From contig NZ_RHHM01000017.1 of assembly GCF_003846135.1 (NCBI RefSeq), positions 1 to 64,000 on the forward strand: a stretch of DNA of 64,000 bases, in the 5' to 3' direction. The position numbers were made by a program, and so were the translations under genes. Under the pieces are notes generated by a model. It had not been told where the DNA came from. It saw nothing but the letters and a program-made list of their open reading frames with translations, and made no database searches. This document shows, one piece after another, positions 6,079 through 47,981 of the stretch. The first letter of the stretch is position 1, and every line of letters begins with the position of its first letter. This DNA is from Erwinia psidii. GTDB lineage: Bacteria; Pseudomonadota; Gammaproteobacteria; Enterobacterales; Enterobacteriaceae.

Positions 6079-6096
6079 GCGCGAAAGGAAATTAGC

Positions 6097-7026: not shown

Positions 7027-7035
7027 CGACATTTT

Positions 7036-7057: not shown

Positions 7058-7083
7058 GTACTATCTGATTCTGGAGTATGAGC

Positions 7084-8934: not shown

Positions 8935-8939
8935 TAACG

Positions 8940-11366: not shown

Positions 11367-11531
11367 GCGGCGGTGGCCTCATCTTGGCGTTGCATTTTTT
11401 GCAATGTGACGTTGTTAATATATCAATTTAAGCAATGGATTTCCTGTCATATGATAAGGGTTATTCAGGGCGAGCTGCCAAATGGTAGCCCCTGCCAATG
11501 AAAAATGTATATAACCCTATATGGAGTACCC
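11367..11531. promoter_or_regulatory. ilvY-ilvC divergent control region
   Basis: This 165-bp spacer must hold both promoters and the IlvY operators known from E. coli. The dyad TTGCA-N5-TGCAA at about 11391-11405 lies close to the ilvY start and is a candidate operator half. I cannot delimit the operators with confidence. Confidence 0.55.
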
Positions 11532-31762: not shown

Positions 31763-33114
31763 TGCTGTCGCAATTTTCCGGCCTGTTGTTGATATGGCTG
31801 ATGTCGCTGGGGGTGATCCTGACTCTCACCTGGCGTGAGTTCCTGCGGGTGCGCTTTAACTTTAACGTATTCTTCTCACTGCTGTTTTTACTGACCTTTT
31901 ACCTGGGTTTTCCGCTGACTGCTCTGCTGGTCTTTGGCTTTCATGTAAAGGTGGTGCCGCCCGAATTTTTGCTGGAGGCGATGCTCTCTGCCACCGGCTT
32001 TTATGCCATCTACTATGTCAGCTATAAAACCCGTCTGCGGCCCGCAAGCGGCAGCGTGTCGCGTCAGGTTTTTACCCTCAATCGTGTGGAAGCCCATCTT
32101 ACCTGGGGTATCCTGACCATCGTTGCACTCGGTACGTTGCTGGTGTTTTTTATACATAACGGGTTTCTGTTGTTCAAATTGCGTAGCTACAGCCAGATAT
32201 TCTCGGCTGATGTTTCCGGCGTGGCGCTGAAGCGTTTTTTCTATTTCTTTATCCCGGCGATGCTGGTGGTCTATTTCCTCAATCAGAACCTTCGCCGCTG
32301 GCTGTTCTTTCTGGTGGCAACGGTAGGATTTGGCCTGTTGACCTACATGATTGTGGGGGGAACGCGGGCCAACATCATCATCGCGTTTGCGCTGTTTTTG
32401 TTTATTGGCATTATTCGCGGATGGATTACGCTCTGGATGCTGGCGATGGCCGGCGTGGCGGGCATAGTGGGGATGTTCTGGCTGGCACTGCGACGTTATA
32501 ACCTTGATGTCAGCGGCGCTGAAGCGTTTTACACTTTTCTCTATTTAACGCGGGATACCTTCTCACCGTGGGAAAATCTGGGGCTACTGCTACAGCATTA
32601 CGACAAAATTGATTTCCAGGGGCTGGCACCGTTGATTCGCGATTTCTATGTATTCATCCCCGGCTGGCTGTGGCCTGACCGCCCTTCCATCGTGCTGAAC
32701 AGCGCGAATTATTTCACCTGGGAAGTACTGAATAATCACTCTGGTCTGGCTATCTCGCCAACGCTAATTGGTTCGCTGGTGGTGATGGGCGGCGTCTGGT
32801 TTATTCCTTTGGGGGCGGTAGCGGTAGGCATGATCATTAAATGGTTTGACTGGCTTTATCAGCAGGGGCTGCGTGAACCAAATCGTTACAAGGCGGCGGT
32901 GTTGCAAAGTTTCTGTTTTGGCGCGGTGTTTAACATGATCGTGCTCACGCGTGAGGGTCTGGACGCTTTTGCCTCCCGTGTGGTGTTCTTCTGCCTGATT
33001 TTTGTTGCGGTGGTGGTGGTAGCGAAACTGCTTTTTTGGCTGCTTGACAGCGCGGGCCTGATCCGCAGCCGTAAAGTGGCGGTATCCCTGCCGGTACAGA
33101 ACCGGCCTTTTTGA
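31759..33114 (+). CDS. wzyE: ECA polymerase
   Basis: A 451-residue polytopic inner-membrane protein with about 11-12 hydrophobic segments, polymerising ECA repeats in the periplasm. The conserved cores [31 protein letters not shown] and [17 protein letters not shown] match E. coli WzyE closely. It begins with ATGATG overlapping the wecF stop. Confidence 0.95.
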
Positions 33115-33144
33115 TATGTCGCCGTTGAGCGTAAGGAATCGTTA

Positions 33145-33885
33145 ATGGATGCCGTTTCTGCTGTCCCGCAGTATCAAATTCGTGGCTTTGTGCTATTAGG
33201 GTTTAGCGATATGGCCGGGATGCTGGACTATCTTTGCCGCGAGGGTGAGGTGAAAACCGGCACGCTGGTGGCGATCAACGCTGAGAAGGTGCTGACTGCT
33301 GAAAGTCAGCCGGAAATTTATCAGCTTATCCAACGGGCGGAATATAAATACCCCGATGGCATCAGTATTGTGCGTTCTATTCGCAAAAAATATCCGCAGG
33401 CCAGCGTGTCACGGATCGCCGGTGCCGATCTCTGGGAAGGGCTGATGGAGAGGGCCGGGCAGGAGGGGATACCGGTTTTTCTGCTTGGCGGTAAACCTTC
33501 GGTCCTGGCACAAACGGCGGATAAACTTCGTCGTCAGTGGAATGTGAATATTGTTGGTACTCAGGACGGTTATTTTTCGCCCGCCGAGCGCGATGCCGTG
33601 TTCGCCCGCGTTGCCGACAGCGGGGCGAAGATTGTCACCGTGGCGATGGGCTCACCACGGCAGGAAGTCCTGATGCAGGACTGTAAGGCTGTTTACCCTC
33701 AGGCACTTTATATGGGCGTGGGAGGAACCTATGACGTTTTCACCGGGCATGTGAAGCGTGCCCCGCTCCTCTGGCAAAAAATGGGTCTGGAATGGCTGTA
33801 CCGCCTGATTTCACAGCCTTCGCGTTTACCACGCCAGCTCAGACTGCTGAAATATCTCAACTATCACTGGCGCGGCGAACTTTAA
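33145..33885 (+). CDS. wecG: UDP-ManNAcA transferase (ECA lipid II synthase)
   Basis: A 246-residue WecG/TagA/CpsF (GT26) glycosyltransferase adding ManNAcA to lipid I. Family motifs [27 protein letters not shown] and [17 protein letters not shown] are present. It is the last cistron, 30 bases after wzyE. In E. coli yifK follows; here the tRNA operon begins about 180 bases downstream and yifK is absent. Confidence 0.95.
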
Positions 33886-34014
33886 TTTTGCTTTTTCTGA
33901 CGCGGTATGGTGCCAAAAAACCGTGGTTTAGCATCAGAAACGACCTGAAAATGATTGTGCTTTAGACAGAATGCACAAAGCGTAAGCAAACTGACTTCAT
34001 TGTGAAAAAAGCAC

Positions 34015-34043
34015 TGGACAGGATCGGCTCAAATCCGTAGTAT
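34015..34043 (+). promoter_or_regulatory. Promoter of the argX-hisR-leuT-proM tRNA operon
   Basis: TGGACA at 34015-34020, 17 bases, then TAGTAT at 34038-34043, followed by a C/G-rich discriminator. This is typical of a stringently controlled stable-RNA promoter and lies about 20 bases before tRNA-Arg. Confidence 0.7.
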
Positions 34044-34064
34044 GCCCATCCGCAACGGCGCTAC

Positions 34065-34141
<77 letters not shown>

Positions 34142-34205
34142 TTAAGTTGTGCGCAAGAGCTGCGGTGGTGGTTTTACCGCGTTAGTAAGATGAAGTAGCA
34201 GTAAT

Positions 34206-34282
34206 GGTGGCTATAGCTCAGTTGGTAGAGCCCTGGATTGTGATTCCAGTTGTCGTGGGTTCGAGTCCCATTAGCCACCCCA
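34206..34282 (+). tRNA. hisR: tRNA-His (anticodon GTG)
   Basis: A 77-nt cloverleaf including the extra 5' G typical of tRNA-His and encoded CCA; anticodon GTG at 34240-34242. Confidence 0.97.
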
Positions 34283-34297
34283 GATTTTGAATGGTAC

Positions 34298-34384
34298 GCG
34301 AAGGTGGCGGAATTGGTAGACGCGCTAGCTTCAGGTGTTAGTGTCTTAACGGACGTGAGGGTTCAAGTCCCTCTCTTCGCACCA
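34298..34384 (+). tRNA. leuT: tRNA-Leu (anticodon CAG)
   Basis: An 87-nt type II tRNA with a long variable arm and encoded CCA; anticodon CAG at 34332-34334. Confidence 0.97.
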
Positions 34385-34411
34385 CAAAATCATTAGTACA
34401 GAAGAATTTGA

Positions 34412-34488
34412 CGGCGAGTAGCGCAGCTTGGTAGCGCAACTGGTTTGGGACCAGTGGGTCGGAGGTTCGAATCCTCTCTCGCCGACCA
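34412..34488 (+). tRNA. proM: tRNA-Pro (anticodon TGG), copy 1
   Basis: A 77-nt cloverleaf with encoded CCA; anticodon TGG at 34446-34448. It is followed by a terminator hairpin (AACCTTGC with GCAGGGTT, then T) at 34497-34520, and then by a second identical tRNA gene. Confidence 0.97.
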
Positions 34489-34496
34489 TATTTTAA

Positions 34497-34521
34497 AACC
34501 TTGCTGAGGCAGGGTTTTTTG
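34497..34521 (+). terminator. Terminator after tRNA-Pro copy 1
   Basis: An imperfect stem, CCTTGC with GCAGGG around TGAG, followed by six T. It probably ended the original tRNA operon before the tRNA-Pro duplication. Confidence 0.75.
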
Positions 34522-34555
34522 CTTAAAGCCTGACGTATATAGTAAAAGCAGTATC

Positions 34556-34632
34556 CGGCGAGTAGCGCAGCTTGGTAGCGCAACTGGTTTGGGACCAGTG
34601 GGTCGGAGGTTCGAATCCTCTCTCGCCGACCA
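34556..34632 (+). tRNA. tRNA-Pro (anticodon TGG), copy 2
   Basis: Identical base for base to the copy at 34412-34488, with which it has a 144-bp period, but the sequence after it differs. E. coli has one such gene here, so this is a local duplication. Confidence 0.96.
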
Positions 34633-34680
34633 TTTTCACAGAAAGCCAGCCTCCGGGCTGGCTTTTTCGTCTCTGCGGCT
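34614..34680 (+). repeat. 67-bp direct repeat, left copy (tRNA-Pro 3' end plus terminator)
   Basis: It runs from the T-arm of tRNA-Pro copy 2 through CCA into a terminator hairpin (AGCCAGCC with GGCTGGCT, then five T, at 34643-34667). The same 67 bases recur at 34763-34829. Confidence 0.93.
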
Positions 34681-34762
34681 GACAGAGGATGAGAACCTCC
34701 GAAGGAGGTTTGCGCCGAGCGGAGCGAGACAACGTTGCGTCAGCAACGGCCCGCAGGGGAAT
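34681..34762 (+). other. Structured spacer between the 67-bp repeats
   Basis: Contains two clear hairpins: AACCTCC-GAA-GGAGGTT at 34693-34709 and CGTTGC-GTCA-GCAACG at about 34733-34748, plus a GAGCGGAGCGAG purine stretch. It lies where the body of a third tRNA-Pro would be. It has no coding content and does not fold into an evident tRNA. Confidence 0.65.
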
Positions 34763-34829
34763 AATCCTCTCTCGCCGACCATTTTCACAGAAAGCCAGCC
34801 TCCGGGCTGGCTTTTTCGTCTCTGCGGCT
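34763..34829 (+). repeat. 67-bp direct repeat, right copy (tRNA-Pro 3' fragment)
   Basis: Identical to 34614-34680. Bases 34763-34781 are the last 19 bases of tRNA-Pro, including CCA, with no matching 5' half upstream, so this is a broken tRNA end. Its terminator hairpin is at 34792-34816. Such a truncated tRNA 3' end beside an accessory island is the usual trace of element integration or recombination. Confidence 0.92.
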
Positions 34830-34937: not shown

Positions 34938-35131
34938 ATGAACAAGCGCAGAGTGGTGGGTATCGATATTGCCAAATCTGTTTTTCAGATCTGTGCCTGG
35001 ATGGTTCCGTTGCCCTGAACCGAAAAATAGCGCGTCATAAATTGCTGGATACATTTCGCCAGCCTGAACCGGGCTGTTATCCGCGCATGACTCATGCCGG
35101 GCGCATAACTGTCCTCGCTGTCAGCCTGTAA
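34938..35131 (+). pseudogene. IS110-family transposase remnant
   Basis: The ATG at 34938 opens a frame beginning NKRRVVGIDIAKSVFQIC, the N-terminus of IS110-family DEDD transposases. It meets a stop after about 27 codons. The continuation (DGSVALNRKIARHKLLDTFRQ) is in another frame, so at least one frameshift has occurred. After about 35075 the similarity fades. The downstream 35132-35590 shows only scrambled open frames and may be further decayed element DNA. It marks the left edge of the accessory island. Confidence 0.8.
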
Positions 35132-35974
35132 AGTGACCGCTGCGGACCCCCTTTGATCGGTTTGCCTGACCGTTGCCAGCGCGCTGATTGTGATCACGCG
35201 GTATGGACAGCACGGTATCGCCCAGTCCACTGGTTTGCTGGCGAACAGCGCGCGGAAAACAGTAAGATATGTCCGGCGTCTTGCGGTCCAGGTCTCAGTT
35301 ACATCGTGCCTGGGTCGGTGGCTGCGAACTGGCGCTCAGGGTGACTCGGCATGGCTGTATGTGCCTGCCCGCTCCGGTTTGCCAGCAAGCCAGTCCCTAC
35401 CAGGACGTCTTCAGGCGTTGTCATAGTGCACCGGCATTGTGTAACCCCTGCACCTCTGCCTGATATCCAGTTGGTCAGGAGGGGGTGTTGCAGCGACGGT
35501 AAAGCGCAAAAAAATGACAGCCCATGGCCACCGGATAACGTGTCCTGAGCTTACCCATTAACGGGAACGATTCAGGAAGCCAGACATCAGGAGCGCGGCT
35601 GGCTTTTTAACACAACGATGCCTGTTTCTTTATTTTAATGTTTCTTCTTTTTTCACTGCACCATCTGTATTGATCTGTGGTGAGCATATCACCTTTATTC
35701 AGGTGACCTGATTCAATAAGCCACCGCATCAAAATAACGCTCAGTGATGTAAACTTGCTGTCTTATTGATGTTTTTTTGAAACGGTCAAGTTATTTACTA
35801 ATAAATAGTACTCAACTGAATTTAAATGTTCTTTGATAAAATTCCAATAAAATTACCCTGGAAGATAATGATCGATTAATTGCGTTCAAAAGTGGTTTTT
35901 TTTTAAAAAATATAGAATGATTGGTTTTCAGTCTGTCGCAGATGCTATTTTTACAAGGATGATACCCGTTTCTT
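35132..35974. other. Decayed element DNA and AT-rich upstream region
   Basis: No supportable gene. 35132-35590 is GC-rich, with overlapping short frames in several phases, consistent with decayed insertion-element DNA. 35600-35974 is strongly AT-rich and must hold the promoter of the following efflux gene; I see no named operator there. The shift in base composition suggests a junction near 35600. Confidence 0.5.
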
Positions 35975-37234
35975 ATGATTAACTCATTGCTTCCTATCAG
36001 CTCCAGAAAATCGATTATATTTTGTGTTGTGCTGGCTTTATTCGAGTTCATGACCTATATCGCCAGTGACGTAATTATGCCGGGGATGTTGACGGTAACG
36101 GCAGACATGCATGCTAAGGAAAGTTATGTGCCCTGGTCACTGAATGCTTACCTGCTTGGCGGCGTTGCTTTTCAATGGCTGCTGGGACCGCTATCCGATC
36201 GTTTTGGTCGGCGCCCTTTATTGTTAACCGGTTGCGCATTATTTTCCGTATCTTTATGTGTTACCGCATGGGCCAATAATATTCATTTATTTACTGTTCT
36301 ACGCTTTATTCAGGGAATGGGGCTGGGGTTTGTAGTAGTGGTGAGTTACCCGGCCTTGCAAGAGTCGTTTAACGAGTCCGATGCTATTCGCCTGATTGCA
36401 CTCATCGCTAATATTGCACTGCTTTCGCCTCTGCTTGGCCCGCTGATCGGTAGCTTCTTGCTCACGTTAATGACGTGGCGAACAATGTTCATTGTCATTG
36501 CCGTTCTGTCGGGGCTTTGTTGGCTGGGGTTACTGCGGTGGATGCCGGAGTCCATCGGCGTTCGGCGTAATGACGGTAGCATCATTGCTCCACGGCCAAT
36601 GCAGATAGCAGCGATCGGCCGCGTCTATGGTGATTTACTGCGGCATAAACAATTTTTGTCTGGCTGCGTTGCACTGGGACTTATCGGTTTGCCGCTGATG
36701 ACCTGGATTGCGCTTTCGCCGCTGTTGCTTATGCGCAACCTGGGACTGAGCACTCTGCATTACGCGCTGTGGCAATTTCCGATTTTTGGTGCGTTAATCG
36801 CAGGCAATATTACGCTTAATTTCATTGCGGACAAATTTAAAATAGAAAGATTGTTATTAATTTCCACCCTTCCTGTTTATTTTGGTTTGATATTGTCTCT
36901 CATTTTGACACCGTTGTTTAATAATATGGTTGTCCTTATTGTCGGTCTGTCTGTTTATGCTTACGGTTTTGGTATTTGTAACGCCACACTCTACAGAGTT
37001 ACACTTTTTTCCAGTTCACACGGTCTTGGCGCAATTTCTGCCATGCTCGGCATGGTGTCAGTTGGCGTATTCAGTATAGGTGGAGCACTGCTGGCGCTTG
37101 CTGGAGCAGGCAACAGCCTTGGTAGCTATATCATTGCCGTCGCCATTCCGGCAGGCTTTGCGTTCTTACTTATTATGAACCTGCTAAGACATAAAGAGCG
37201 TAATAATGCTGCTCCGGGATCTGATGACTTCTGA
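35975..37234 (+). CDS. MdfA-like MFS multidrug efflux transporter
   Basis: A 419-residue major facilitator with about 12 hydrophobic segments. It resembles E. coli MdfA (DHA1 drug:H+ antiporters). The two membrane-embedded acids of MdfA are kept: Glu24 and Asp32 in FEFMTYIASDVIMPGML. Motif A (GPLSDRFGRRPLLL) and motif C-like SPLLGPLIG are present. It is the first gene of a co-directional set followed 38 bases later by a LuxE-like gene, so the likely job is export of, or self-protection from, the product made by these enzymes. The export role is inference; the family is clear. It could also act as a general drug pump. Confidence 0.88.
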   Translation: MINSLLPISSRKSIIFCVVLALFEFMTYIASDVIMPGMLTVTADMHAKESYVPWSLNAYLLGGVAFQWLLGPLSDRFGRRPLLLTGCALFSVSLCVTAWANNIHLFTVLRFIQGMGLGFVVVVSYPALQESFNESDAIRLIALIANIALLSPLLGPLIGSFLLTLMTWRTMFIVIAVLSGLCWLGLLRWMPESIGVRRNDGSIIAPRPMQIAAIGRVYGDLLRHKQFLSGCVALGLIGLPLMTWIALSPLLLMRNLGLSTLHYALWQFPIFGALIAGNITLNFIADKFKIERLLLISTLPVYFGLILSLILTPLFNNMVVLIVGLSVYAYGFGICNATLYRVTLFSSSHGLGAISAMLGMVSVGVFSIGGALLALAGAGNSLGSYIIAVAIPAGFAFLLIMNLLRHKERNNAAPGSDDF

Positions 37235-37272
37235 TTATTCAATGGACGTAACGACTATTAAGGAAATATAAC

Positions 37273-38400
37273 GTGATATCCGTCCCTGCTGTCGATGAAC
37301 TCTGTGCGATCGCCAGACCTTATCAGTGCGATGCAATGAGTGACCAGTTATTCCATAACGCCATGCTGGAAATCGTCTCTTTCCATGTTAAAAATACGCC
37401 GGGATACGCGCAATGGTTAATTCACCATCGCATCAACCCGGACGATCCGCAGTTGAAATCATGGGGAAATCTGCCGCCAATATTTGCCAATTATTTCAAA
37501 CGTCATCTTTTGCTCAGTAGCACAGGTCAGAATGCACTGGAGCTGACATCGTCAGGAACCAGTGGGCAAAAAAGTCGGATGCGTTTTGACCACCGAAGCA
37601 TCAAGGCCGCGCAAGGCATGGTCGACCATATTTTTCATCATTATGAATGGGTTACACCAGCCACACCCTGTAATTACCTCCTGCTGAGTTATGAACCTGA
37701 TGAGGCGATCACGCTGGGTACAGCCTATACCGATCGGTTTTTGTGCAAATATGCCCCCGTCAAACAGGCCGTTTATGCCCTGCGTAATACCGGAAAAGGT
37801 CATGAATTCGATCCATTTGGCGTGATCCGCACACTCCAAACCTTCTCACAGGATGACGCCCCGGTACGCATTTTTGGGTTCCCTGCATTTATGTGGTTTG
37901 TTCTGGAAAGGATGCGCGATATGCATTTGCCCCCACTGACGTTGCCGCCAGGTTCATTAACGTTTTTCGGTGGTGGTTGGAAAACGCATGCTGATAAAGA
38001 AATACCAAAAGCAACGCTGTACGCACGGCTTGGTGAACAGTTAGGGCTGCCTGATGCACGTTGTCGGGATGGCTACGGTTCTGTTGAACACTGCGTTCCC
38101 TACGTTGAGTGCCCCCATCACCATTTTCATATTCCGGTCTACGCCAGGGCGTGGATCCGTGATACCCGCACGTTTGAGATTAAAGCATACGGCGAACGGG
38201 GATTCTTGCAGTTTGTCTCGCCCTACATCACTTCCAGTCCGGCCCATAGCATCGTGATGAGCGATGTAGCGATTCTGCATCGCGCCGATGAGTGTGGGTG
38301 TGGACTGGCGACAGACTGGTTTGAACTGCTGGGGCGCGCCAGTCAGCATCAGGCAAGGAGCTGTGCACTGGCGGCCTCAGAATTACTACAAGGAAAGTGA
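37273..38400 (+). CDS. LuxE-family acyl-protein synthetase
   Basis: A 375-residue ANL-superfamily protein of the LuxE type (acyl-protein synthetase/acyl-activating). The ATP-binding P-loop TSSGTSGQKS is at residues 92-101. Further family marks are the GYGSVEHCVPYVECPHH block, FVSPYITSSPAHSIVMSD, paired cysteines ECGCG, and the C-terminal SCALAASELL. In Vibrio lux operons LuxE activates a fatty acid as acyl-AMP and passes it through a cysteine thioester to LuxC for reduction. The start is a GTG behind AAGGAAA. It lies one base before the luxC-like gene, so the pair probably acts in sequence. The substrate is unknown; no luciferase genes are nearby. Confidence 0.85.
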   Translation: MISVPAVDELCAIARPYQCDAMSDQLFHNAMLEIVSFHVKNTPGYAQWLIHHRINPDDPQLKSWGNLPPIFANYFKRHLLLSSTGQNALELTSSGTSGQKSRMRFDHRSIKAAQGMVDHIFHHYEWVTPATPCNYLLLSYEPDEAITLGTAYTDRFLCKYAPVKQAVYALRNTGKGHEFDPFGVIRTLQTFSQDDAPVRIFGFPAFMWFVLERMRDMHLPPLTLPPGSLTFFGGGWKTHADKEIPKATLYARLGEQLGLPDARCRDGYGSVEHCVPYVECPHHHFHIPVYARAWIRDTRTFEIKAYGERGFLQFVSPYITSSPAHSIVMSDVAILHRADECGCGLATDWFELLGRASQHQARSCALAASELLQGK

Positions 38401-38401
38401 T

Positions 38402-40810
38402 ATGTATTTCATTTATGGCAAAGGTTACCCCTCCTTCACACCGGAACAGGCGTTAGTCTTGCTGACAGAGATGTTGGACGATACGTTGAGCCAGCCGCTG
38501 CCCACGGATGCGTTGTTTGCCTGTGTGGGACAGTTTGTGAAGCGACTGGAAGATAACGCCTTTTTACCCCAGCTTGATGCGGCGGTCCGCGAAGAAGTGA
38601 GCCAGTTCTGCCAGCCAGAGGCGTTGCGCTTCAAGCTTGAGCATGAGCTGGGTGATGCCCCCTTCTCGTTACGCCGTTTTAATTTCTCACGGCCGCATTT
38701 CGAGAGCTGGCGTCCGCTGGGCGTGGTGCTACATATTACCCCAGCTAATGCGCAAGCCCTTCCTTTTCTGGCGATCGTGGAAAGCCTGTTGGTGGGCAAT
38801 ATTAACTGGCTGCGTCCCAGTGCCAGCGAAAAAGGGCTGACCCTGGAACTGTTGCAGGGTTTTCTTGACTGCGATGCGACGAATACGCTGGCGAAATACT
38901 TCGCCATCCTGCCTGTGTCGACCGACAGGCTCGCTCTACTGATGGCGCATGTGGATGGGATTTCCGCATGGGGTGGCGATGCCGCGCTCAACGCTATACG
39001 TCATCAGCTTCCCGGCGGCTGTCGCTGGATCCCATGGGGACATAAAATCAGCTTCTCCTGGCTGATGCCGGATGCGATCGATGACAGGCAGATGGATGCG
39101 CTGGCGGATGAAATTTGTCGTTTCGATCAGCTGGCATGTTCCAGCTCACAGATAGTATTTGTCGATACGGAGTCGCTGTCCGCATTAACGGACATTGGCG
39201 ACAGTCTGGCGCAGGCAATGCATCGCCGTTGCGGTCACTGGCCCTTTCAGCAACCGGATGAAAAGTCGGCGGCAGACATTACCAGTGCGCAAGCTATTAG
39301 CGAACTTGACAGGGTTTTTACCGGCGCGGACAACCGATGCTGGAATGGCGATAACTGGCGTATCTTGCTGCAAAACACGGTCGGGATCGAGCCTTCTCCG
39401 CTTTACCGCACGCTGTTGTTGCGTCCGCTACCACGGCACAAACTGATTCAGACCTTGCGTCCCTGGCGTCGTTATTTGCAAACCTGTAGCCTGGCGGCGA
39501 CAGAGAAGGATATGGTGTTCCTCAGTCAGCTTCTGCTGACCGCTGGGGTTAATCGCATCACCCCCCTTGCTGGCATGCATTCAGGCTATAGCGGTGAACC
39601 GCACGACGGCATATTTGCGTTAAGCCAGCTGGTACGACGCGTTACTGTCACCCTCGACGCCGGGATATTGCCCGGATTAGCGACGCTCGATCTCCCGTCT
39701 CAGGCACCTTGCTTACCCGTCGATCAGCCTGTCATGGATAGAGCCGCCTTCACTGAAAATGCGATCCAGCCAGGCGCAAAGCTCTTTTTCCGCAGCGGTG
39801 GCAGCAGCGGCGTACCTAAACTGGCGGGCTTTACGTATCGTGACTACCACCTTCAGATGCAAGCCGCTGCCGATGGCATGTTCGCCGCAGGTCTCGATCC
39901 TGCGAAGGATAAAGTGCTGAGTCTGATGTACGCCGGAAATCTGTATGGTGGTTTGCTGAGTTTCTTCACCGTACTCGACAAAGCGGGCGTTATGCACCTG
40001 CCCATGGGGGGGCCGCATGATGATAATTATGAAGAGATTGCGAAAACGATCGTCAGCCAGCAGGTCAACACCCTGACAGGCATGCCCAGTACCCTGTATC
40101 AGTTGTTCCACCAGCAGGCGTCATTGCTGCGTAGTTATGGTGGCATTCACAAATTGCTGACCGGCGGTGAACATATAAGCGCCATTCAGCGTGCGTTTTT
40201 TCATGGCTTTGGTATTGAAATGGTTCGTTCCGCGCTATATGGCTCCGTCGATGCCGGGCCATTGGGATACAGCTGTAGCGCGAGTCCTGAAGGTGTGTTT
40301 CATCTGATGGCGGATATTCAGTGGCTGGAGATCGTCAATACGGAATGCGACAAACCTGTCGGGCCGGGAGAAGTGGGGCGTCTGCTGTTTACCTCCAGGG
40401 TCCGTGAAGGTCATCGCGTGGTTCGCTACGATATTGGCGACCTGGGTCGCTGGGTGGAAGGACGCTGCGCCTGTGGTGCGCTGACACCCCGGTTTGAACT
40501 GCTCGGCCGCCACGGCAACCTGATACGTATTGGCACGATGTTTATCCCTGTACAGCAACTGGCGCAGCTGGCAGAGGTGCCAGTACAGCTCATCCTTGAC
40601 CATAATCCTTCCAGCGGATGGGAGCGTATCCGTATCCTGGCGGAGGGGGATACCACTGAGGTACAACGCCGGGTCAGTAGCCATCCTGAACTGCTGATGG
40701 GGCTGGAGGCGGGATTATTGGAGATTGAGGTCACATGCTGCCCGTTTGTCGCGTTTGAACGACACCCTCAAAGCGGTAAAACGCCACTGGTCATCGATAA
40801 ACGTCGCTGA
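38402..40810 (+). CDS. LuxC-type acyl-CoA reductase fused to a PaaK-like adenylation domain
   Basis: An 802-residue two-enzyme protein. Residues 1-420 match LuxC acyl-CoA/acyl-protein reductases (aldehyde-dehydrogenase fold): the NAD(P)-domain stretch LGVVLHITPANAQALPFLA, the catalytic cysteine Cys246 in DQLACSSSQ, and the closing HDGIFALSQLVRRV. Residues 440-802 form an adenylation domain of the PaaK/F390-synthetase type, with P-loop RSGGSSGVPK at 464-473, YGSVDAGPLG, and RYDIGDLG. The fused protein could adenylate an acid and pass it for NADPH reduction to an aldehyde. The true start is the ATG at 38402; the open frame extends 38 codons upstream inside luxE. Fusion and neighbours are seen; substrate and product are unknown. 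Confidence 0.87.
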   Translation: MYFIYGKGYPSFTPEQALVLLTEMLDDTLSQPLPTDALFACVGQFVKRLEDNAFLPQLDAAVREEVSQFCQPEALRFKLEHELGDAPFSLRRFNFSRPHFESWRPLGVVLHITPANAQALPFLAIVESLLVGNINWLRPSASEKGLTLELLQGFLDCDATNTLAKYFAILPVSTDRLALLMAHVDGISAWGGDAALNAIRHQLPGGCRWIPWGHKISFSWLMPDAIDDRQMDALADEICRFDQLACSSSQIVFVDTESLSALTDIGDSLAQAMHRRCGHWPFQQPDEKSAADITSAQAISELDRVFTGADNRCWNGDNWRILLQNTVGIEPSPLYRTLLLRPLPRHKLIQTLRPWRRYLQTCSLAATEKDMVFLSQLLLTAGVNRITPLAGMHSGYSGEPHDGIFALSQLVRRVTVTLDAGILPGLATLDLPSQAPCLPVDQPVMDRAAFTENAIQPGAKLFFRSGGSSGVPKLAGFTYRDYHLQMQAAADGMFAAGLDPAKDKVLSLMYAGNLYGGLLSFFTVLDKAGVMHLPMGGPHDDNYEEIAKTIVSQQVNTLTGMPSTLYQLFHQQASLLRSYGGIHKLLTGGEHISAIQRAFFHGFGIEMVRSALYGSVDAGPLGYSCSASPEGVFHLMADIQWLEIVNTECDKPVGPGEVGRLLFTSRVREGHRVVRYDIGDLGRWVEGRCACGALTPRFELLGRHGNLIRIGTMFIPVQQLAQLAEVPVQLILDHNPSSGWERIRILAEGDTTEVQRRVSSHPELLMGLEAGLLEIEVTCCPFVAFERHPQSGKTPLVIDKRR

Positions 40811-40847
40811 ATGTCCACAGTCTGTTTGACCATAAGGATATATAAAC

Positions 40848-42149
40848 ATGACAAAGCAAGAGACGCACACTGCGAACGATATGCTCTTAGCCCTTGAAGA
40901 ACTTGTAGCGTTCGCCCGCCGACACTCTTCATATTATGCCCGGCATTACCAGCACCTTCCGCAGAGTGGCTGGCAAATAGGCGACCTGCCGCTGGTGGAA
41001 CCCTGCAATTACTGGCAAGGGAGCAGCGGGCTGACTCATTGGCCGGTTTTGACCGGACCGGTTAGCGATGGCATGGTATTTAAAACTGGCGGCACCACCG
41101 GTGCCGGCAAACTGTCCGTTTATACACGCAGCGAATGGCTTGCCTTTGTCACCAGCTTTGGCCGGAGCCTGGCCAACCATTTGCAGCCCGGCGATCGCGT
41201 TGCGAATCTGTTTTTTGCCGGGGACCTTTACTCCAGTTTCTTATTTATCCACGCTTCTCTTGCCCACATGGATACGCCGGTATGCGAATATCCGTTTAGC
41301 GGCGCGATGAAGCCACAGACGCTGTTTGACCAACTCAACCAACATAATATCCATGTCCTGGCTGGCGTTCCTTGCATGTTATTACAATTTGCGGCAAGAA
41401 CAGCGGAGCGACAGCAGCAACTACCGGGTATTACGCTGCTTCTCTTTGGCTCTGAGAGCATATTTGCAGAACAGCTGTTGCTGCTTAAGCAGGTTTTCCC
41501 TAATGCCCGTGTAGCCTCTATTGGATGCGCAAGCGTGGATGCAGGTCTGATTGGTGCCAGCGATACGACCTGTCTTGTCGGAGAGCACCGGGTGTTTGAA
41601 CCTGAAACGATCGTCGAAATCATTGATGAAGCCACTGGCGAACCCATTTTTGAGGAAGATCGCACCGGCATGTTGGTTATCACTAATCTGACGCGCAAAC
41701 TCATGCCGCTGATACGTTATCCGGTTGGCGATCTTGCTGCCTGGCGTGAACCGCCGGGAACACCCGCCCGTAAGTTTATTCTGCAAGGACGAAGCAGCCT
41801 CGGATATCGTCTTCGCGTGGGCTTTTCCTCTGTTTTCCCTGATGAGTTCAATACGCTGATAAGCGAAACCTTAGGCAGACAACAGTGGCAGATGGTGCTG
41901 GATCATCACGACCATTGCGATTGGCTGACTCTGCGTATTGCCTTCTCCGGCAGTGATAGCCAGGCCGACGCGCTCTGTCACGCCATTCTGGAAAAAGACA
42001 GCTCACTCGCTGGCCTACTTGAAGCAGGTCAACTGCGTATGATCATTGAGTGGTGCAGGCAGGATGAGCTTGTCTGCAATTCCCGTACCGGTAAATTGCA
42101 GCGCGTTATGGACCGTCGTGCGTATTTAACAGAGGAAACGGAAAGATGA
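40848..42149 (+). CDS. PaaK-like adenylate-forming ligase
   Basis: A 433-residue ANL-family enzyme related to phenylacetate-CoA ligase and coenzyme F390 synthetase. The P-loop is TGGTTGAGK (residues 80-88). The central FGSES and the VRYPVGDLAAW-like block (LIRYPVGDLAAW here) mark the AMP site, and a shortened C-terminal lid ends near TGKLQRVMDRR, with the usual lid lysine position present. It is the third acid-activating module in a row, after LuxE and the LuxC-fused domain. It follows 37 bases after the fusion gene and overlaps the next gene by four bases. It may activate a second acid building block; the substrate is unknown. Confidence 0.85.
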   Translation: MTKQETHTANDMLLALEELVAFARRHSSYYARHYQHLPQSGWQIGDLPLVEPCNYWQGSSGLTHWPVLTGPVSDGMVFKTGGTTGAGKLSVYTRSEWLAFVTSFGRSLANHLQPGDRVANLFFAGDLYSSFLFIHASLAHMDTPVCEYPFSGAMKPQTLFDQLNQHNIHVLAGVPCMLLQFAARTAERQQQLPGITLLLFGSESIFAEQLLLLKQVFPNARVASIGCASVDAGLIGASDTTCLVGEHRVFEPETIVEIIDEATGEPIFEEDRTGMLVITNLTRKLMPLIRYPVGDLAAWREPPGTPARKFILQGRSSLGYRLRVGFSSVFPDEFNTLISETLGRQQWQMVLDHHDHCDWLTLRIAFSGSDSQADALCHAILEKDSSLAGLLEAGQLRMIIEWCRQDELVCNSRTGKLQRVMDRRAYLTEETER

Positions 42150-43036
42150 TTGTTATCAGAGACTTCGTGGCAGATGATGCTGATGGCATCAGCGAACTGT
42201 TTCGCGAGGTTTACGGCGATCGCTACGTTTATTCTGACCTTTATATGCCCACGATGATCGTCTGGCATAACGCACAGCGTCACTGGCACAGCGCGGTGGC
42301 CGTTGAAAATGGTTGCATCATAGGCCATGCGGCGCTGTGGATGAATGAAGATGCACCCTGCGCCGAGCTGGCTATGTTTGCGACACACCCCAAAACCCGA
42401 CGTCGTGGCGTGGCCACCAGACTGGGCAGACATCTGCGTTGTGAGGCCCGTAAACAACAGCTGACTATGCTGACGATAAAAATGGTATGTAGCCATCCTC
42501 ATTCACAGCGGATGGCGAAAAATCTGGGCTTTGATGCTATTGCCCTGTTACGGGACTACGTGGTGTCGCCGTTTGAATCAGGGTCTCTTGAGAGTGTGAT
42601 TTTGGGTGTTCTGCCCTTGCAGCCATGTCCGGTGCCCCAGATCGTGGGAATGCATGGGCAGCATCACTGGCTGTCGCTTTTAAGCGCCCGGTTTGGCAGT
42701 ACACTACCTCCCTGTACGGTACAGACGACTTCAGCTCTGGAGATGACCGACATCGGCAATCGCGTGGAGGTCACACTCTACCAACCGACAAACAGAATCA
42801 CAGATGAAATCACCCGACTTCCGCATAGCCGACTCATCTATCTGCGGGCTCAGATCAGCACGGCTCTGGCAGAGGCCCTGCCCATGCTTTACCGCGCAGG
42901 CTACCGGGATTCTGGCCTGATGCCTGATAACAGGGGGGGCTGGTTTTGGTTATTTCAGCGCGGCTTCAGACGACAGGAACTGCAATTGTGCTGCCCGATA
43001 GCCCAGATGTTACAAACGTATTTACTCTCAGCCTGA
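42146..43036 (+). CDS. GNAT-family acyltransferase with C-terminal extension
   Basis: A 296-residue protein. The first 150 residues form a GNAT N-acyltransferase, with acetyl-CoA motif A RRRGVATRLG at residues 85-94 preceded by the beta strand CAELAMFATHP. The remaining 145 residues contain no domain I recognise and may be a second, degenerate GNAT-like half. It overlaps the preceding ligase by four bases, so it belongs to the same transcript. It could transfer an activated acyl group to an amine, or modify the product for self-protection. Both are inferences. Confidence 0.8.
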   Translation: MIVIRDFVADDADGISELFREVYGDRYVYSDLYMPTMIVWHNAQRHWHSAVAVENGCIIGHAALWMNEDAPCAELAMFATHPKTRRRGVATRLGRHLRCEARKQQLTMLTIKMVCSHPHSQRMAKNLGFDAIALLRDYVVSPFESGSLESVILGVLPLQPCPVPQIVGMHGQHHWLSLLSARFGSTLPPCTVQTTSALEMTDIGNRVEVTLYQPTNRITDEITRLPHSRLIYLRAQISTALAEALPMLYRAGYRDSGLMPDNRGGWFWLFQRGFRRQELQLCCPIAQMLQTYLLSA

Positions 43037-43440
43037 TGGGGCCAGCTACAGCTGGCTGGTGGCTTTACCGGTCCACAACCGGGATATCGCCGTGCTGATA
43101 GCAGTCCTTTTCGGCAACCGTGTTGCATTATTCATTCCCCCTACGCCCGGACACCCGGCATTTACAGACTGGCTGAACGGAGTGTAATTCTTAACCAGGA
43201 ATGTTACATACAGGGATGCTTTACCGTGTCGGCATTACTGCTTCCCTGCACGGTATTCAACACTCAGAAATGGATGACGACGATGCAACAGAGATGTGTT
43301 TCGGCGACGCAACGGAGATACAGCGACGCTTACTGCAAAAGAGTAACCCATGAAAATGCATGGGTTATCGTAGTCTGGCACAGATTCTGTTCTGAATGGC
43401 GGGTGCCATATCATCACCATACGGCACCTGCTCAACGCGG
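43037..43440. other. Intergenic DNA between the acyl-modification genes and the NRPS remnant
   Basis: No supportable gene. A 50-codon open frame at 43035-43187 (+) has protein-like composition (containing ALFIPPTPGHPAF) and ends in TAA, but has no start of its own and no recognised family; it could be a gene remnant. A short stem GCCAGC-TACA-GCTGGC lies at about 43041-43056 without a T-run. Confidence 0.4.
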
Positions 43441-44520
43441 TCAGGTGCGCGACCGCAGAACCTCAGTGATACGCTGCCCCAGCAGGTGGCGATTTTCCTT
43501 ATCGCTCATTATACCGGCATGATCACCCTTCACCTGCCCGATACGAAGCTGGCCGTCATGGTATAACCAGCTCCAGCCCAAATCCTCCAGGCTGGCCGTT
43601 TGCGCGACAAACCGGTTAAATCTGGCGGCATCGGCGAGCACCAACGGATCGACATCCGGCACCGGCAACGTTTCCTGTGCTGCCATCAGATGAACACGCG
43701 GAAGGAGGCGCATCAGCAGCGCGACGGCACTGAGCCAGATAACAGGCTCTTTGACCTGTTGCTGGTTGGCTGATAAGCGCATACGCGAGCGTTTTTCTGC
43801 CGCCAGACGTTGGATATAACGCACGTTTAGCGGTTTTCTCTCTTCGCCAATAACACGCTGCGTCATCACCGCAGAAGGCAACCCGCTAACGTATTGTTGC
43901 CAAAATGCGGCATCGTCCTGGCTGGCTGAGTCAGCCAGCCAGGACTGTTCTTCCTTGGGCAAAACGGCACTGTCCAGCTGTGGAAATGTCGGAAGTGGTG
44001 AACCTGCGACTAAAGCGTTATAGCTCTCTGCCAGCAGGGATTTCAGGATGGTCCATGAGCGTACATCGATCAGGCTGTGATGAAGCCACGCGGCCAGACA
44101 GTAGCGCTCGTCGTCGAGTTGATACCACCGGAAATGAGAAAGTGCGCCATCAGTACATTTGCGATTTGGCGTATTTTGCGTCAGCTGCTTCAGAAATTCC
44201 GCTTCTGGTGAAGTAAGTTTGCGCAAATCGGTCAGTTCGGGGAGAAGCCGACTGGCGCAAGTGCGCTGCTGCCATAAACGGCCATCCAGCCAGAGCAGTC
44301 GCGTTTACAACACAGGAACCTGCTGACCCAAATGTTCCAGCGCCTGTCTGAGCTTATCGACATTCAGTCGCTCATTGATATCCAGTGAGAATGAAAGCCA
44401 ACAATTCGCCTGCTGATGCGTCTCCTCGATCAGGGCGATTTCCTGTTGTGCCAGCGTTGATGGCGTCATGTACGGGTAGTGGTTATCGGAAGAATGTAAG
44501 GTTGGGATGTTCGCATTCAT
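43441..44520 (-). pseudogene. NRPS remnant: condensation domain joined to thioesterase tail, with in-frame stop
   Basis: The minus strand reads continuously in one frame for 360 codons from the ATG at 44520, except for a TAA at codon 72 (44305-44307). On both sides the translation fits a condensation domain: LAQQEIALIE and LRQALEHLGQQVPVL before the stop, TRLLWLDGRLWQQ after it. The active-site motif appears as HHSLIDV (codons 147-153) instead of HHxxxDG. After about codon 274 (near 43698) the sequence changes to a thioesterase-like C-terminus with LGWSWLYHDG and the His of GDHAGIM. Adenylation and carrier domains are absent, so this looks like an NRPS collapsed by internal deletion and then stopped. 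Domain calls are by eye. Confidence 0.72.
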
Positions 44521-45101
44521 AGTAATATCATGACCTTATTTTTTATTTACTTAATCTGCGCTCCAGGGCGCGATGAAGAGAGGGCAACTAACCGACGTTT
44601 CTGCACCGATATCTTTTGGCCGTTTTATCGGCGCATCGGGATTTCCGGTTGGCGGATAAAGGATTCAGACCGACGTGCATAGCTAAGGGTAAGGTGTGGT
44701 ACCGGTAGGTAATCAGGGGGATCAACATCCAGTTACTCCATATTTATCTATAAGAAAAACCGGACTCTTTTTTTCTTATATCTCCGGTAATTTCTGGTTT
44801 TAAAATTATTTTTGTCGAAAAAAAGGCGTAACCACATAAGAAAAACTACCTTTTTTCGGAAGATTTCTGTTTTTCTGTTGCACAGGTGGGGATTGTGCAG
44901 GCAGCTGAAAACCGCGTGCGATACCAACCAAGATACGTGTTATCACCACTGACTGAGGCAACTCAGGCCTCGTTCATAAGGAATACCGTGAAGTGTTGTG
45001 CTGGCGTGACAACTGACTTTGGATACGGGGTATAGCGGCAATGTTGTTGGAATAAAGCCTGACAGGCTGCTTCACCCTGATATTTACCTCACCACTCGCG
45101 C
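44521..45101. other. Intergenic DNA left of glmZ control region
   Basis: No gene is supportable. Much is AT-rich. An inverted repeat at 44816-44858 (CGAAAAAAAGG with CCTTTTTTCG, arms 22 bases apart) could form a hairpin. The upstream part must hold whatever promoter the NRPS remnant once used. Short ORFs show no family resemblance. Confidence 0.5.
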
Positions 45102-45119
45102 TGTCTCATTTTGGTGACA
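45102..45119 (+). promoter_or_regulatory. GlrR (QseF) binding site 1 for glmZ
   Basis: TGTC-N10-GACA, a perfect match to the binding consensus of the sigma-54 activator GlrR/QseF. It lies about 195 bases before the -24/-12 promoter of glmZ. Confidence 0.75.
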
Positions 45120-45164
45120 TATAATACTATGATTTTTATGTTATTTAATTATTCCTGTGCAGTC

Positions 45165-45182
45165 CGTCGTCAGCAGGCGACA
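45165..45182 (+). promoter_or_regulatory. GlrR (QseF) binding site 2 for glmZ
   Basis: CGTC-N10-GACA, one mismatch from the TGTC-N10-GACA consensus. It lies about 63 bases after site 1, as expected for a multi-site enhancer. Confidence 0.65.
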
Positions 45183-45258
45183 TCTTTAGCGAAGCGTTCC
45201 CTAATGTGAAGCGCTGCTGCCAACGGGTGTTTTAAGGTTTTTTAAATAACGTATTATT

Positions 45259-45271
45259 AATCAAGTTGTTA
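45259..45271 (+). promoter_or_regulatory. IHF binding site before glmZ
   Basis: AATCAAGTTGTTA fits the IHF consensus WATCAANNNNTTR exactly. It sits between the GlrR sites and the sigma-54 promoter, where DNA bending would bring them together. Confidence 0.65.
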
Positions 45272-45299
45272 TATAAAAAATTGCGCACGGTTTTTGCTC

Positions 45300-45315
45300 T
45301 GGCATGAGTTATGCA
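45300..45315 (+). promoter_or_regulatory. Sigma-54 (-24/-12) promoter of glmZ
   Basis: TGGCATG-N4-ATGCA, with GG and GC exactly ten bases apart and two mismatches from TGGCACG-N4-TTGCA. The predicted start is at about 45326-45327, which coincides with the GTAGATGCTCATTCC 5' end typical of GlmZ. Confidence 0.78.
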
Positions 45316-45326
45316 ATAGTTGAAAT

Positions 45327-45527
45327 GTAGATGCTCATTCCACATTTTATGCTTGCGCAAGCTTCATAAAGCCGGGAATGATGCAGAGCCCTTACGGTAC
45401 CTGTTGTCCAGCCGCCACTATCGCCGCGAGGCCTTAATGGTACAGGGACACTACGTTGAGTCAGGTACCAGCCAAATTGTCTTACCGACCTGAACGTTTA
45501 CACCTGCCGGACTGGCAGGTGTTTTTT
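45327..45527 (+). ncRNA. glmZ: Small regulatory RNA GlmZ
   Basis: A sequence of about 201 nt whose 5' end (GTAGATGCTCATTCC), the GGAATGATGCAGAGCC block and the GGACAC-ACGTTGAGT block are recognisable from E. coli GlmZ (207 nt). It ends in the terminator ACACCTGCC-GGACT-GGCAGGTGT plus seven T at 45500-45527. In E. coli glmZ also lies next to hemY. GlmZ with Hfq activates translation of glmS (glucosamine-6-phosphate synthase) until it is cleaved by RNase E guided by RapZ. Here the gene is preceded by a sigma-54 promoter and GlrR and IHF sites, a control type known for glmY and glmZ in several Enterobacterales. Confidence 0.88.
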
Positions 45528-45598
45528 TATCTGCAGAAACTCCCGGCTTTGCACGATGTCTGAGGGGGCTGATTTGTCAGGGGAGCAGAGCCGGACAG

Positions 45599-45624
45599 TA
45601 AAAAGCCGGGTGATCAACCCGGCT
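45599..45624 (-). terminator. Terminator of hemCDXY
   Basis: AGCCGGG and CCCGGCT form a perfect stem, and on the minus strand it is followed by TTTTTA. It lies 23 bases after the hemY stop codon. Confidence 0.85.
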
Positions 45625-45646
45625 GATGGCAAAGCACGCGCTGAGG

Positions 45647-46837
45647 TTAAGGATTGTTTTTCAGCGTCAGTAACAGTCCGTCGCGACGCATCTCTGCTGC
45701 TTCTTCCGGTTTATGCTGGCGATCCAACGTGTCTGCCAGCCATGCGTAGTCAAAGGCATCAGGACGCTGTTTTAACGCTGCCCTGAAAGCATCGCTTGCC
45801 TGCTGCCATTCGCCATGCGTCATTAACAGTTGTCCCAGGGTGCTGTAAAGCAGTGGTGTGGCACCGTGCTGTTTAATCTGTTGATTAAGCGCTTTTTCCA
45901 GTTGCTCCGGGTTGCCGGTTTTCAGGCGTGGCATCAGTAGCACCAGGCGTTCGTCATAATGACGTTTCAGACCGGCCAGGATAATCTCCTGAGCGGTGGC
46001 ATGATCATCACAAACAATAAGATGATCCGCCATTGCCACCTGTAACGCTGCGTCGTAACGGGTTTTACGACTCTGATTTTGCCACCAGCGCTTCAGGCCT
46101 TCACTGCCCTGTTCGGCCATTGCCTGGTTCATTAACCCCAGCCAGGCTTGTTGCTGCAACGTATCACGGTGGGTCTCATCAAAGACCTGCACTTTATTCA
46201 TTGCGGGCAGGATATCCAGCAGAGAATTCCATGCGCCGGTCCGCACGTAGGCCTGTTCTGCAAGGCGCAGAACCTCAGGATGACGCGGTGCCACTTCCAG
46301 CAGGCGATCGATACCATGACGGGCCGCATGATCCTCATTTCGTGCCAGCTGGATCCGTACCCGCGTGATCTCCACCGGCAGCTGATCGTTACCGGCCAGC
46401 TCGGCTGCCCTTGCAAGATGCTGATTGGCGCGAATTTCATCACCGCGTTGCTGTGCAGCTTCACAGGCCAGCAGGTAGTTGACTACCGGCTGCTCTGCGT
46501 GATCGGCATTCTTCGACAGCAGTTTTTCAACCTGGCGGTGATCCCCTTCGGCCAGTTTCATCAGGGCAGCGTGCGTTTGCTTGCGGGCACGGTTACGTTT
46601 TCTGCCCAAAAACCAGCCGCGTGTGCGGCTACCGGTCCGTAATAAGCGACGCAGTAGCCACTCAACCAGCAGAATGACGATTAACGACAGGATCAGAATA
46701 ATCGCAAGCCCGGTAACGCTGGTTTCAATGTTCCAGTTGCTGGTCTGGATCAGGACATAGCCCTGGTGACCTGCCAACATCGGGCCAAGTACGACGCCTG
46801 CCATCAGTAATAAAAAAAGTATCAGGACCTTAAGCAT
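45647..46837 (-). CDS. hemY: HemY, TPR membrane protein of the hem operon
   Basis: A 396-residue inner-membrane protein with two hydrophobic segments near the N-terminus (about 1-22 and 40-60), a basic RLLRTGSRTRGWFLGRKRNRARKQ linker, and cytoplasmic tetratricopeptide-like helices to the end. It belongs to the HemY_N family of E. coli. It is not the protoporphyrinogen oxidase of the same name in Bacillus. Its biochemical role is uncertain; it is linked to porphyrin metabolism by operon and phenotype. It is the last of four cistrons, two bases after hemX. Confidence 0.92.
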   Translation of the reverse strand: MLKVLILFLLLMAGVVLGPMLAGHQGYVLIQTSNWNIETSVTGLAIILILSLIVILLVEWLLRRLLRTGSRTRGWFLGRKRNRARKQTHAALMKLAEGDHRQVEKLLSKNADHAEQPVVNYLLACEAAQQRGDEIRANQHLARAAELAGNDQLPVEITRVRIQLARNEDHAARHGIDRLLEVAPRHPEVLRLAEQAYVRTGAWNSLLDILPAMNKVQVFDETHRDTLQQQAWLGLMNQAMAEQGSEGLKRWWQNQSRKTRYDAALQVAMADHLIVCDDHATAQEIILAGLKRHYDERLVLLMPRLKTGNPEQLEKALNQQIKQHGATPLLYSTLGQLLMTHGEWQQASDAFRAALKQRPDAFDYAWLADTLDRQHKPEEAAEMRRDGLLLTLKNNP

Positions 46838-46839
46838 GG

Positions 46840-47964
46840 TTATTCTCCCTGCTGCCGTTGTCCGGCACCGGGCTGGGCCAGCAGGTTGCGCACGCGCGTT
46901 TGCATCAGTTGATCCAGCATTGGCTGGCTTTGCAGTGAATCCGGTACGTCCATGGAGATGCTCTGCTGACTCAGTTCATCCAGCTGAATGAGATAGGCTT
47001 TAGTAGCGGGATCGCGGGTATCAAACCACGCGCGAACCCAGGCGGAAACGGTATCGATAGATTGCTTATAGATCTCGTTCTGATGGCGTGGCACGGCCTG
47101 GGCAGCAACCAGTAAGCGTGAGCGAATATTTTCACGCAGGTAGATTTCCTGATTGGGTGCCAACAGAGGTTCTGCGGTGGTATCGCGGCGACGGATGGTA
47201 ATAAAGTCATCCATAAAGTTATGCCAGCTTTTCACCAGATTTTGCCGCCATTCGCGCAGTGAGGACGAAAGCTCCCCACTGTCTGAATCCATTGGCGAGT
47301 CATCGTTGTCATTATCGGCAAGACGCAGGTTATCAACCCCGTTGGACAACTGATTCAGCTTGAGGATCACCCCGTCGTAATCAACCTGGCTGATTGCTGA
47401 TAGCGAACTGATATCGTTGGTCAATGCCCGACGCACTTCAATCAGGCTGGGATCGTTCATCTCTGCCAGACTGTTATCGGCGCTTTTCAGCAAGGCGGCG
47501 GCCGTGGTTACATCCTGATCGCTCCAGAGCTTACGCCCAGCCAGTTTCACCAGATAATCGGCCTGAGCAAGAAGCCAGGTATGTGCATCGTTACCGGAGA
47601 TCGTCGCTACTTTTTCTTTTAGCTGGTCAAGCTGCTGGCTCATGGTGGCCTGCTGCTGACGGGCAGTATTCAGCGCGTCAGTCTGTGCCGTCAGTTGCTG
47701 TTGCAAAGTCTGTGTATTGCTCAATGACTGCTGTTGCAGCTCTGAAAGCTGATTAGCCAGCGTCTGGTTAGCGGCGGACAGTGCCGCGGTCTGGTGCTTA
47801 TCATTGATATACAGCCCAATGCCTGAAGCCAGTGCAATGGCAATCGCCAGCACGGCCAGTGCTGTTGCAGCATTACGAGGCTGGCGGCCAGGCTTTGGTG
47901 CTGTACTCTCTGCCGTTGGCGTGTTCTCATCAACCAGGACAGAGGAATCTTTTTGTTCCGTCAT
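46840..47964 (-). CDS. hemX: HemX, membrane-anchored hem operon protein
   Basis: A 374-residue protein with a short cytoplasmic N-terminus, one transmembrane segment (about 35-53), a Gln/Leu-rich coiled coil (about 60-118), and a helical domain matching E. coli HemX (once annotated as uroporphyrinogen methyltransferase without support). The conserved core [22 protein letters not shown] is present. It lies 17 bases after hemD and two before hemY. Function unknown. Confidence 0.92.
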
Positions 47965-47981
47965 TGTGGTATATCCCCTAT

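Follow-up and report, generated by a model that had tools for sequence, protein, structure and literature searches.

The five genes at positions 35975-43036 of the window, by which we mean the whole analysed stretch of 64,000 nucleotides from Erwinia psidii, form an intact MFS-leupABCD cluster, that is a leupeptin operon acquired by horizontal transfer, and we put the probability of this reading at about 90%. The assignment is based on exact matches of published leup primers within the orthologous genes of Klebsiella michiganensis, on the conserved gene order and on a phylogenetic tree. The window therefore holds a real, intact cluster of a kind that has already been described in other bacteria. 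Most probably the operon makes leupeptin or one of its close analogues, such as the lysinal reported for Klebsiella.

Gene content of the cluster

According to the list of open reading frames of the window, five intact and co-directional genes are located on the plus strand at 35975-43036:

35975-37234, plus strand: leup-associated transporter, an MdfA-type MFS exporter (419 aa; Pfam MFS_1, 1.2e-36)
37273-38400, plus strand: leupA, LuxE-like acid-activating acyl-protein synthetase (375 aa; GTG start; Pfam LuxE, 7.3e-27)
38402-40810, plus strand: leupB, LuxC-type acyl reductase fused to a PaaK-like AMP-dependent ligase (802 aa; Pfam LuxC, 1.8e-100, and AMP-binding)
40848-42149, plus strand: leupC, PaaK-like AMP-dependent ligase (433 aa; Pfam AMP-binding and a sub-threshold PaaK-type C-terminal domain)
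42146-43036, plus strand: leupD, GNAT N-acetyltransferase (296 aa; Pfam Acetyltransf_1, 3e-13)

The genes are separated by 38 bases (MFS-leupA), 1 base (leupA-leupB) and 37 bases (leupB-leupC), and leupC and leupD overlap by 4 bases (spacing -4), if leupB starts at 38402. The reading frame of leupB also contains an earlier in-frame ATG at 38288, within leupA. We settled on 38402 because the corresponding frame in K. michiganensis encodes 802 aa as well and begins 1 base past leupA, and because both Salmonella plasmids carry annotated genes of the same length and spacing. With this start the arrangement described in the first-pass annotation is correct, and its naming of the parts as an MdfA-type exporter, LuxE, a LuxC-ligase fusion, a PaaK-like ligase and a GNAT agrees with the Pfam and NCBIfam families. 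The best NCBIfam match of the transporter is the MdfA family, below the cut-off of that profile, and the window proteins also fall short of the NCBIfam equivalog cut-offs for LuxE, LuxC and PaaK, so that none of these profiles names the pathway. Among known structures LeupA matches the LuxE of PDB 7xc6, LeupB matches its LuxC as well as PaaK-type ligases, and LeupC matches PaaK-type structures. A promoter scan upstream of the operon gave 2 sites compared with a mean of 2.1 after shuffling.

With luxCDABE the operon shares LuxE- and LuxC-type enzymes with aligned cysteines, but its five genes include neither a luciferase nor a LuxD-type protein, its LuxC is fused to a PaaK-like ligase, and a second ligase and an acetyltransferase are additional. 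The Pfam and NCBIfam scan of the five proteins found no luciferase, polyketide synthase or fatty acid synthase, as had been stated from the bare sequence. A lux operon, already dismissed in the first-pass annotation for want of luciferase genes, was rejected as no luciferase family match occurs in the five proteins or in the adjacent scanned fragment. Also comparable are the NRPS-type clusters of Streptomyces (antipain/leupeptin family, livipeptin), which according to excerpts of PMC10548850 and PMC11212599 yield the same product class, namely small N-acyl peptide aldehydes inhibiting proteases. In contrast to these, the peptide bonds in the window system are attributed to discrete AMP-dependent ligases, and none of the five proteins has a Pfam match to an NRPS condensation or carrier domain. 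An NRPS peptide-aldehyde cluster was thus rejected, since the only related element is a broken condensation-domain fragment beyond the cluster (43441-44226, minus strand). This fragment was also discarded as a part of the pathway, being broken and on the opposite strand. None of 25 leup loci matches the window DNA that holds it (43034-45330), and besides its own genome the fragment has one weak match (E 1e-15) among 198 family genomes.

Identification as a leup operon

K. michiganensis carries a leupeptin operon leupABCD with a transporter, as described in excerpts of PMC8283571 and PMC11480411, and the legend of Figure 2 in PMC8283571 speaks of 'the transporter and leupABCD'. The same source gives the primers leupA_f and leupB_r, which lie 1,235 bp apart. 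Each of them has a single exact match in the K. michiganensis locus L005, leupA_f at 8924-8944(+) and leupB_r at 10139-10158(-), which again corresponds to 1,235 bp and agrees with the published distance. The first primer is located inside a LuxE-like reading frame (8863-9999) and the second inside a LuxC-ligase reading frame (10001-12409), preceded by an MFS gene and followed by PaaK-like and GNAT genes. From the primer positions and these neighbours it follows that the LuxE-like protein is LeupA, the LuxC-ligase fusion LeupB, the PaaK-like ligase LeupC and the GNAT LeupD. The window proteins are 71% (LeupA), 65% and 68% (the two domains of LeupB), 67% (LeupC) and 54% (LeupD) identical to those of K. 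michiganensis. The window transporter shows 62% identity to the MFS protein encoded directly upstream of leupA in L005, compared with 43% to its nearest paralogue in its own genome. The four enzymes, their order and the LuxC-ligase fusion are the same as in leupABCD of K. michiganensis/oxytoca, Photorhabdus and Xenorhabdus, and with K. michiganensis the window also shares the adjacent MFS transporter. A paper by Li et al. from 2020 is said to be the defining one for this cluster in Klebsiella, Photorhabdus and Xenorhabdus.

This result overturns the first-pass statement that no named pathway has such a composition: primers, gene order and tree all identify the leupeptin operon. Nor can the cluster be called undescribed, since the same gene set occurs in a characterised one, which that annotation itself had named as grounds for giving up the claim. 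An undescribed acyl activation and reduction pathway unrelated to leupeptin could still appeal to the generic nature of the Pfam and NCBIfam matches and to the unreached LuxE, LuxC and PaaK equivalog cut-offs. The exact match of the published primers to the orthologous genes of K. michiganensis, together with the same order and the same transporter, makes this reading so improbable that we regard it as refuted in the sense of an unknown cluster.

The conserved neighbourhood that had been proposed as a check is indeed found, as the order A-B-C-D is kept in 21 of 25 related loci, three of which have damaged leup genes (L007, L013, L042). Locus L011 has A-B-C with no D detected, and in three Streptomyces-group loci C is separate from A-B. 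A homologous MFS gene is present upstream of leupA in ten of the 25 loci, in four of these as a partial copy (L007, L012, L013, L032); among the 15 loci lacking it, L036 and L041 have contigs that extend just ~1.0-1.3 kb upstream. Five of the 25 (L007, L012, L013, L032, L042) carry damaged leup or MFS genes.

We reconstructed a tree from concatenated LeupABC sequences (1587 columns) of the window and 22 of the 25 loci, omitting L007, L013 and L042 as damaged, and rooted it with the Streptomyces-group and Obscuribacterales copies. The window falls into a clade with a support of 100 together with Erwinia sp. 198, G287, the Salmonella plasmid, Morganella, K. michiganensis and Mixta. Pseudomonas branches next (100), followed by a group with the Photorhabdus-like and g13 copies (100); the placements of G064 (36) and Herbaspirillum (63) have low support. 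Four genomes (G138, G301, G361, G233) are labelled Photorhabdus-like because their luxE is 92-96% identical to luxE of the lux cassette on a laboratory plasmid, and their leup copies have no homologous MFS gene upstream. Genus g13 may be Xenorhabdus. Locus L065 is part of neither the tree derived from the 25-locus comparison nor the invariant-residue count given below. From the topology the window groups with one named producer genus, and probable copies of another are located just outside. Orthologues of leupA and leupB, the A-B-C-D order, an adjacent transporter and a position in a clade with a producer genus, the features by which we recognise a leup operon, are all present in the window.

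As the proteins are just 54-71% identical to the K. michiganensis set, the residue specificity could differ, and the same enzymology might lead to another product, either a peptide aldehyde with other residues or another acyl group, or a derived pyrazinone. According to an excerpt of PMC11480411 the leup operon of K. oxytoca/michiganensis gives leupeptin and a Lys analogue, and leup operons of Xenorhabdus and Photorhabdus a homoarginine pyrazinone. The expected m/z is 427.303 for leupeptin (PMC13273461) and 252.182 for the Leu-Arg pyrazinone (PMC11480411), and the Klebsiella operon was elicited by Neu5Ac. We nevertheless consider another product rather unlikely, as the window copy stands among those of genera reported as leupeptin makers, with K. 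michiganensis inside the clade and the Photorhabdus-like copies just outside. As this reading partly coincides with the close analogue allowed for in our main interpretation, the respective probabilities do not add up to one.

Catalytic residues, selection and proposed biosynthesis

In lux enzymes the cysteines of LuxE and LuxC act as acyl carriers. Cys364 of LeupA aligns with Cys360 of LuxE and Cys246 of LeupB with Cys288 of LuxC, and all 23 copies compared (the window and 22 of the 25 loci, again without L007, L013 and L042) keep both residues. A second invariant cysteine of LeupB, Cys239, aligns with Cys281 of LuxC; because of the aldehyde-dehydrogenase-like motif surrounding it, we take Cys246 to be the acyl-carrying residue.

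Compared with Erwinia sp. 198, dN/dS of the five genes ranges from ~0.08 (leupA) to 0.20 (leupD) with no stops, and compared with the Salmonella plasmid copy it is ~0.06 to 0.19 for four genes, while dS is saturated with respect to K. michiganensis. With dN far below dS, the window operon is under purifying selection. This bears on the idea of a degenerate and non-functional leup relic left behind by a mobile element, for which the transposase-like remnant upstream, the broken condensation-domain gene downstream and the damage at five of the 25 related loci could be cited. We regard such a relic as very unlikely, since none of the five window genes is interrupted, the catalytic cysteines identified by alignment are conserved, and in both comparisons dN is much smaller than dS.

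For the intact leupeptin operon we propose the following biosynthesis, in which LeupD would acetylate an amino acid, presumably leucine. LeupC and the C-terminal ligase domain of LeupB would then make the two peptide bonds of Ac-Leu-Leu-Arg without any NRPS. The LuxE-like LeupA would adenylate the tripeptide acid and load it onto its own C-terminal Cys364, from where the acyl group may pass to Cys246 in the LuxC-type domain of LeupB. This domain would use NAD(P)H to reduce it to an aldehyde, the C-terminal argininal, and the MFS protein would probably export the product. The assignment of these steps, from acetylation by LeupD through the two ligases to the LuxE-to-LuxC relay, is our own interpretation, framed on the summary of the Xenorhabdus pathway in PMC11212599. 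As stated there for X. bovienii, leupeptin is formed independently of NRPS: separate AMP-dependent ligases make the amide bonds, and the aldehyde is produced by a reductase. The guess made from the sequence alone, namely acid activation, reduction to an aldehyde, N-acylation, condensation and export, fits the leupeptin pathway well. This scheme would agree with early biochemical work in Streptomyces, which reportedly described a leucine acetyltransferase as well as an ATP-dependent synthetase and a reductase for leupeptin acid.

Insertion site, distribution and related Streptomyces loci

The window copy also differs from K. michiganensis in its location: it is part of an insertion of ~10.5 kb that separates the proM tRNA from glmZ. 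In all five congeners checked (L066-L070, out of ten located genomes of the genus) the cluster is missing at this site and the proM-glmZ gap amounts to ~0.2-0.7 kb; in one of them, L068, a different insertion of ~5 kb separates glmZ from hemY, and G392, also among these five, has leup elsewhere. In all seven other leup genomes with hemY located (G392, G397, G287, G093, G230, G154, G064), leup and hemY are on different contigs or ~1.9 Mb apart. The window DNA at 45300-50000 has no match in any of the 25 leup loci, and for 30000-34640 just tRNA-sized stretches match, in L011. Upstream of the operon the transposase-like remnant includes two 84-base stretches that are ~79-80% identical, in inverted orientation, to DNA that closely follows leupD on the Salmonella plasmids. 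The insertion, this match and the conjugative nature of the Salmonella plasmids point to repeated horizontal transfer, which would be the simplest history of the leup operon.

A contig scan with the fusion protein revealed nine loci, namely in Erwinia sp. 198, Morganella morganii, K. michiganensis, two Pseudomonas, Rosenbergiella, Mixta, Herbaspirillum and an Obscuribacterales MAG. Leup operons are present in Morganella, Mixta, Pseudomonas and Herbaspirillum, and damaged ones in Rosenbergiella and on the conjugative Salmonella plasmids. Of 107 matching plasmid records, six, all among the 40 matches listed, have a query coverage of at least 80%; two are from Salmonella and four from the Streptomyces group. 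Within the genus six of 37 genomes pass E 1e-20, three of them with the full fusion (including the window) and three with the LuxC part alone (28-31%), and in the wider family 15 of 392 genomes, the window included, pass E 1e-60. Phages gave three records, each a partial match, and the complete E. coli genomes gave no leupB match at the DNA level. Judged by titles and the openings of abstracts, we found no leup operon reported from Erwinia.

Homologues of LeupC, the GNAT, LeupA and LeupB are also encoded on plasmids of S. cattleyicolor, Streptomyces sp. NBC_00158 and BHT-5-2, and on the NBC_00158 plasmid the order PaaK-MFS-GNAT-LuxE-LuxC/ligase forms a single run. The LeupD profile gave weak matches to reading frames in three Streptomyces-group loci (E 2e-10, 4e-6 and 6e-5). 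The MFS protein of NBC_00158 has no recognisable kinship with that of the window, for which phmmer found no homologue in L014, L015 and L016. This speaks against the Streptomyces link, although the leup-like locus L015 does encode an MFS protein of a different kind. As excerpts of PMC10548850 and PMC11212599 attribute the leupeptin-type compounds of Streptomyces to NRPSs, these leup-like plasmid sets represent a testable alternative. Tentatively, and with clearly less confidence than in the identity of the operon, one might see the window operon as a representative of a mobile peptide-aldehyde system that works without NRPSs and is also found on Streptomyces plasmids. Under this possible view discrete ligases could, besides NRPSs, be a source of classic Streptomyces leupeptin, a known producer of which is Streptomyces roseus, and LuxE/LuxC would be a general cap turning an acid into an aldehyde, reused even on ribosomal peptides.

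On a plasmid of S. europaeiscabiei NBC_01735 (L073), a LuxE/LuxC pair is encoded next to three other proteins: a nitroreductase-YcaO protein, one with an MBL fold and a DUF692-type RiPP enzyme. A 53-aa reading frame with four FPFR repeats follows 80 bases past luxC. This frame could encode a ribosomal precursor, the freed peptides of which would end in Arg and be reduced to the argininal. Search listings of the literature gave no ribosomal peptide-argininal cluster of this kind. Besides its own record no plasmid LuxC exceeds 46% identity to that of L073 at E 1e-30, and a scan of viral contigs for it found nothing.

In summary the analysis names the likely product of the cluster and corrects the tempting call of an unknown pathway; clusters of this type readily escape notice, because the generic profiles used here do not identify the pathway. 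One may speculate that the association with a plant or an insect is where a protease inhibitor and its pyrazinone would have a role.

DNA flanking the operon

Upstream of the leupeptin operon the window carries two tandem tRNA-Pro(TGG) genes (four of the five congeners examined also have two tRNA-Pro genes) and a decayed stretch that is partly common to the DNA downstream of leupD on the Salmonella plasmids L012 and L013, where it lies in inverted orientation. On the other side, remnants of a condensation-domain gene extend to about position 44520, and among 198 genomes of the family this gene has one weak relative besides its own genome's copy.

Features flanking the operon in the window
34412-34632 and 34668-34781: two tandem tRNA-Pro(TGG) genes, then RtT RNA
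about 34938-35730: decayed stretch, whose start may be IS110-family transposase-like, going by a motif
43441-44226 (-): broken stand-alone NRPS condensation-domain gene downstream of leupD (Pfam, 1.4e-11)

Incomplete and plasmid-borne copies

LeupABCD is also carried by conjugative IncF plasmids of Salmonella enterica (L012, CP054717.1; L013, CP053580.1). The MFS gene is truncated on both and leupD is interrupted in L013. In two other Salmonella plasmid records, no more than a part of leupA is present. In Rosenbergiella gaditana (L007) an internal deletion brings the beginning of the LeupB ligase domain up against the last part of leupC, and the MFS gene is present as a fragment only.

Leup-like gene sets comprising LeupC, a GNAT, LeupA and the LeupB fusion were also seen on three linear plasmids, one from Streptantibioticus cattleyicolor and two from Streptomyces (L014, L015 and L016). 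The set of L015 additionally includes an unrelated-looking MFS gene and has three peptidase-inhibitor I36 genes nearby. Separately, an unverified record whose label describes it as a human faecal phage (L075, MT835565.1) encodes a LuxC-type reductase matching LeupB at about 30%.

LuxE and LuxC beside RiPP genes in Streptomyces europaeiscabiei

A plasmid of Streptomyces europaeiscabiei (L073) encodes a LuxE matching LeupA at 42% and an unfused LuxC, both beside RiPP genes.

Gene set on L073 (NZ_CP109155.1)
1025-9725: LuxE, unfused LuxC, YcaO-nitroreductase, MBL-fold and DUF692/MNIO-type RiPP genes

After this set comes a 53-aa ORF that contains four FPFR repeats and has a purine-rich stretch 5' of its ATG. 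The ORF has the appearance of a multi-core ribosomal precursor from which a peptide argininal would be made, and the gene set possibly represents a new RiPP type.
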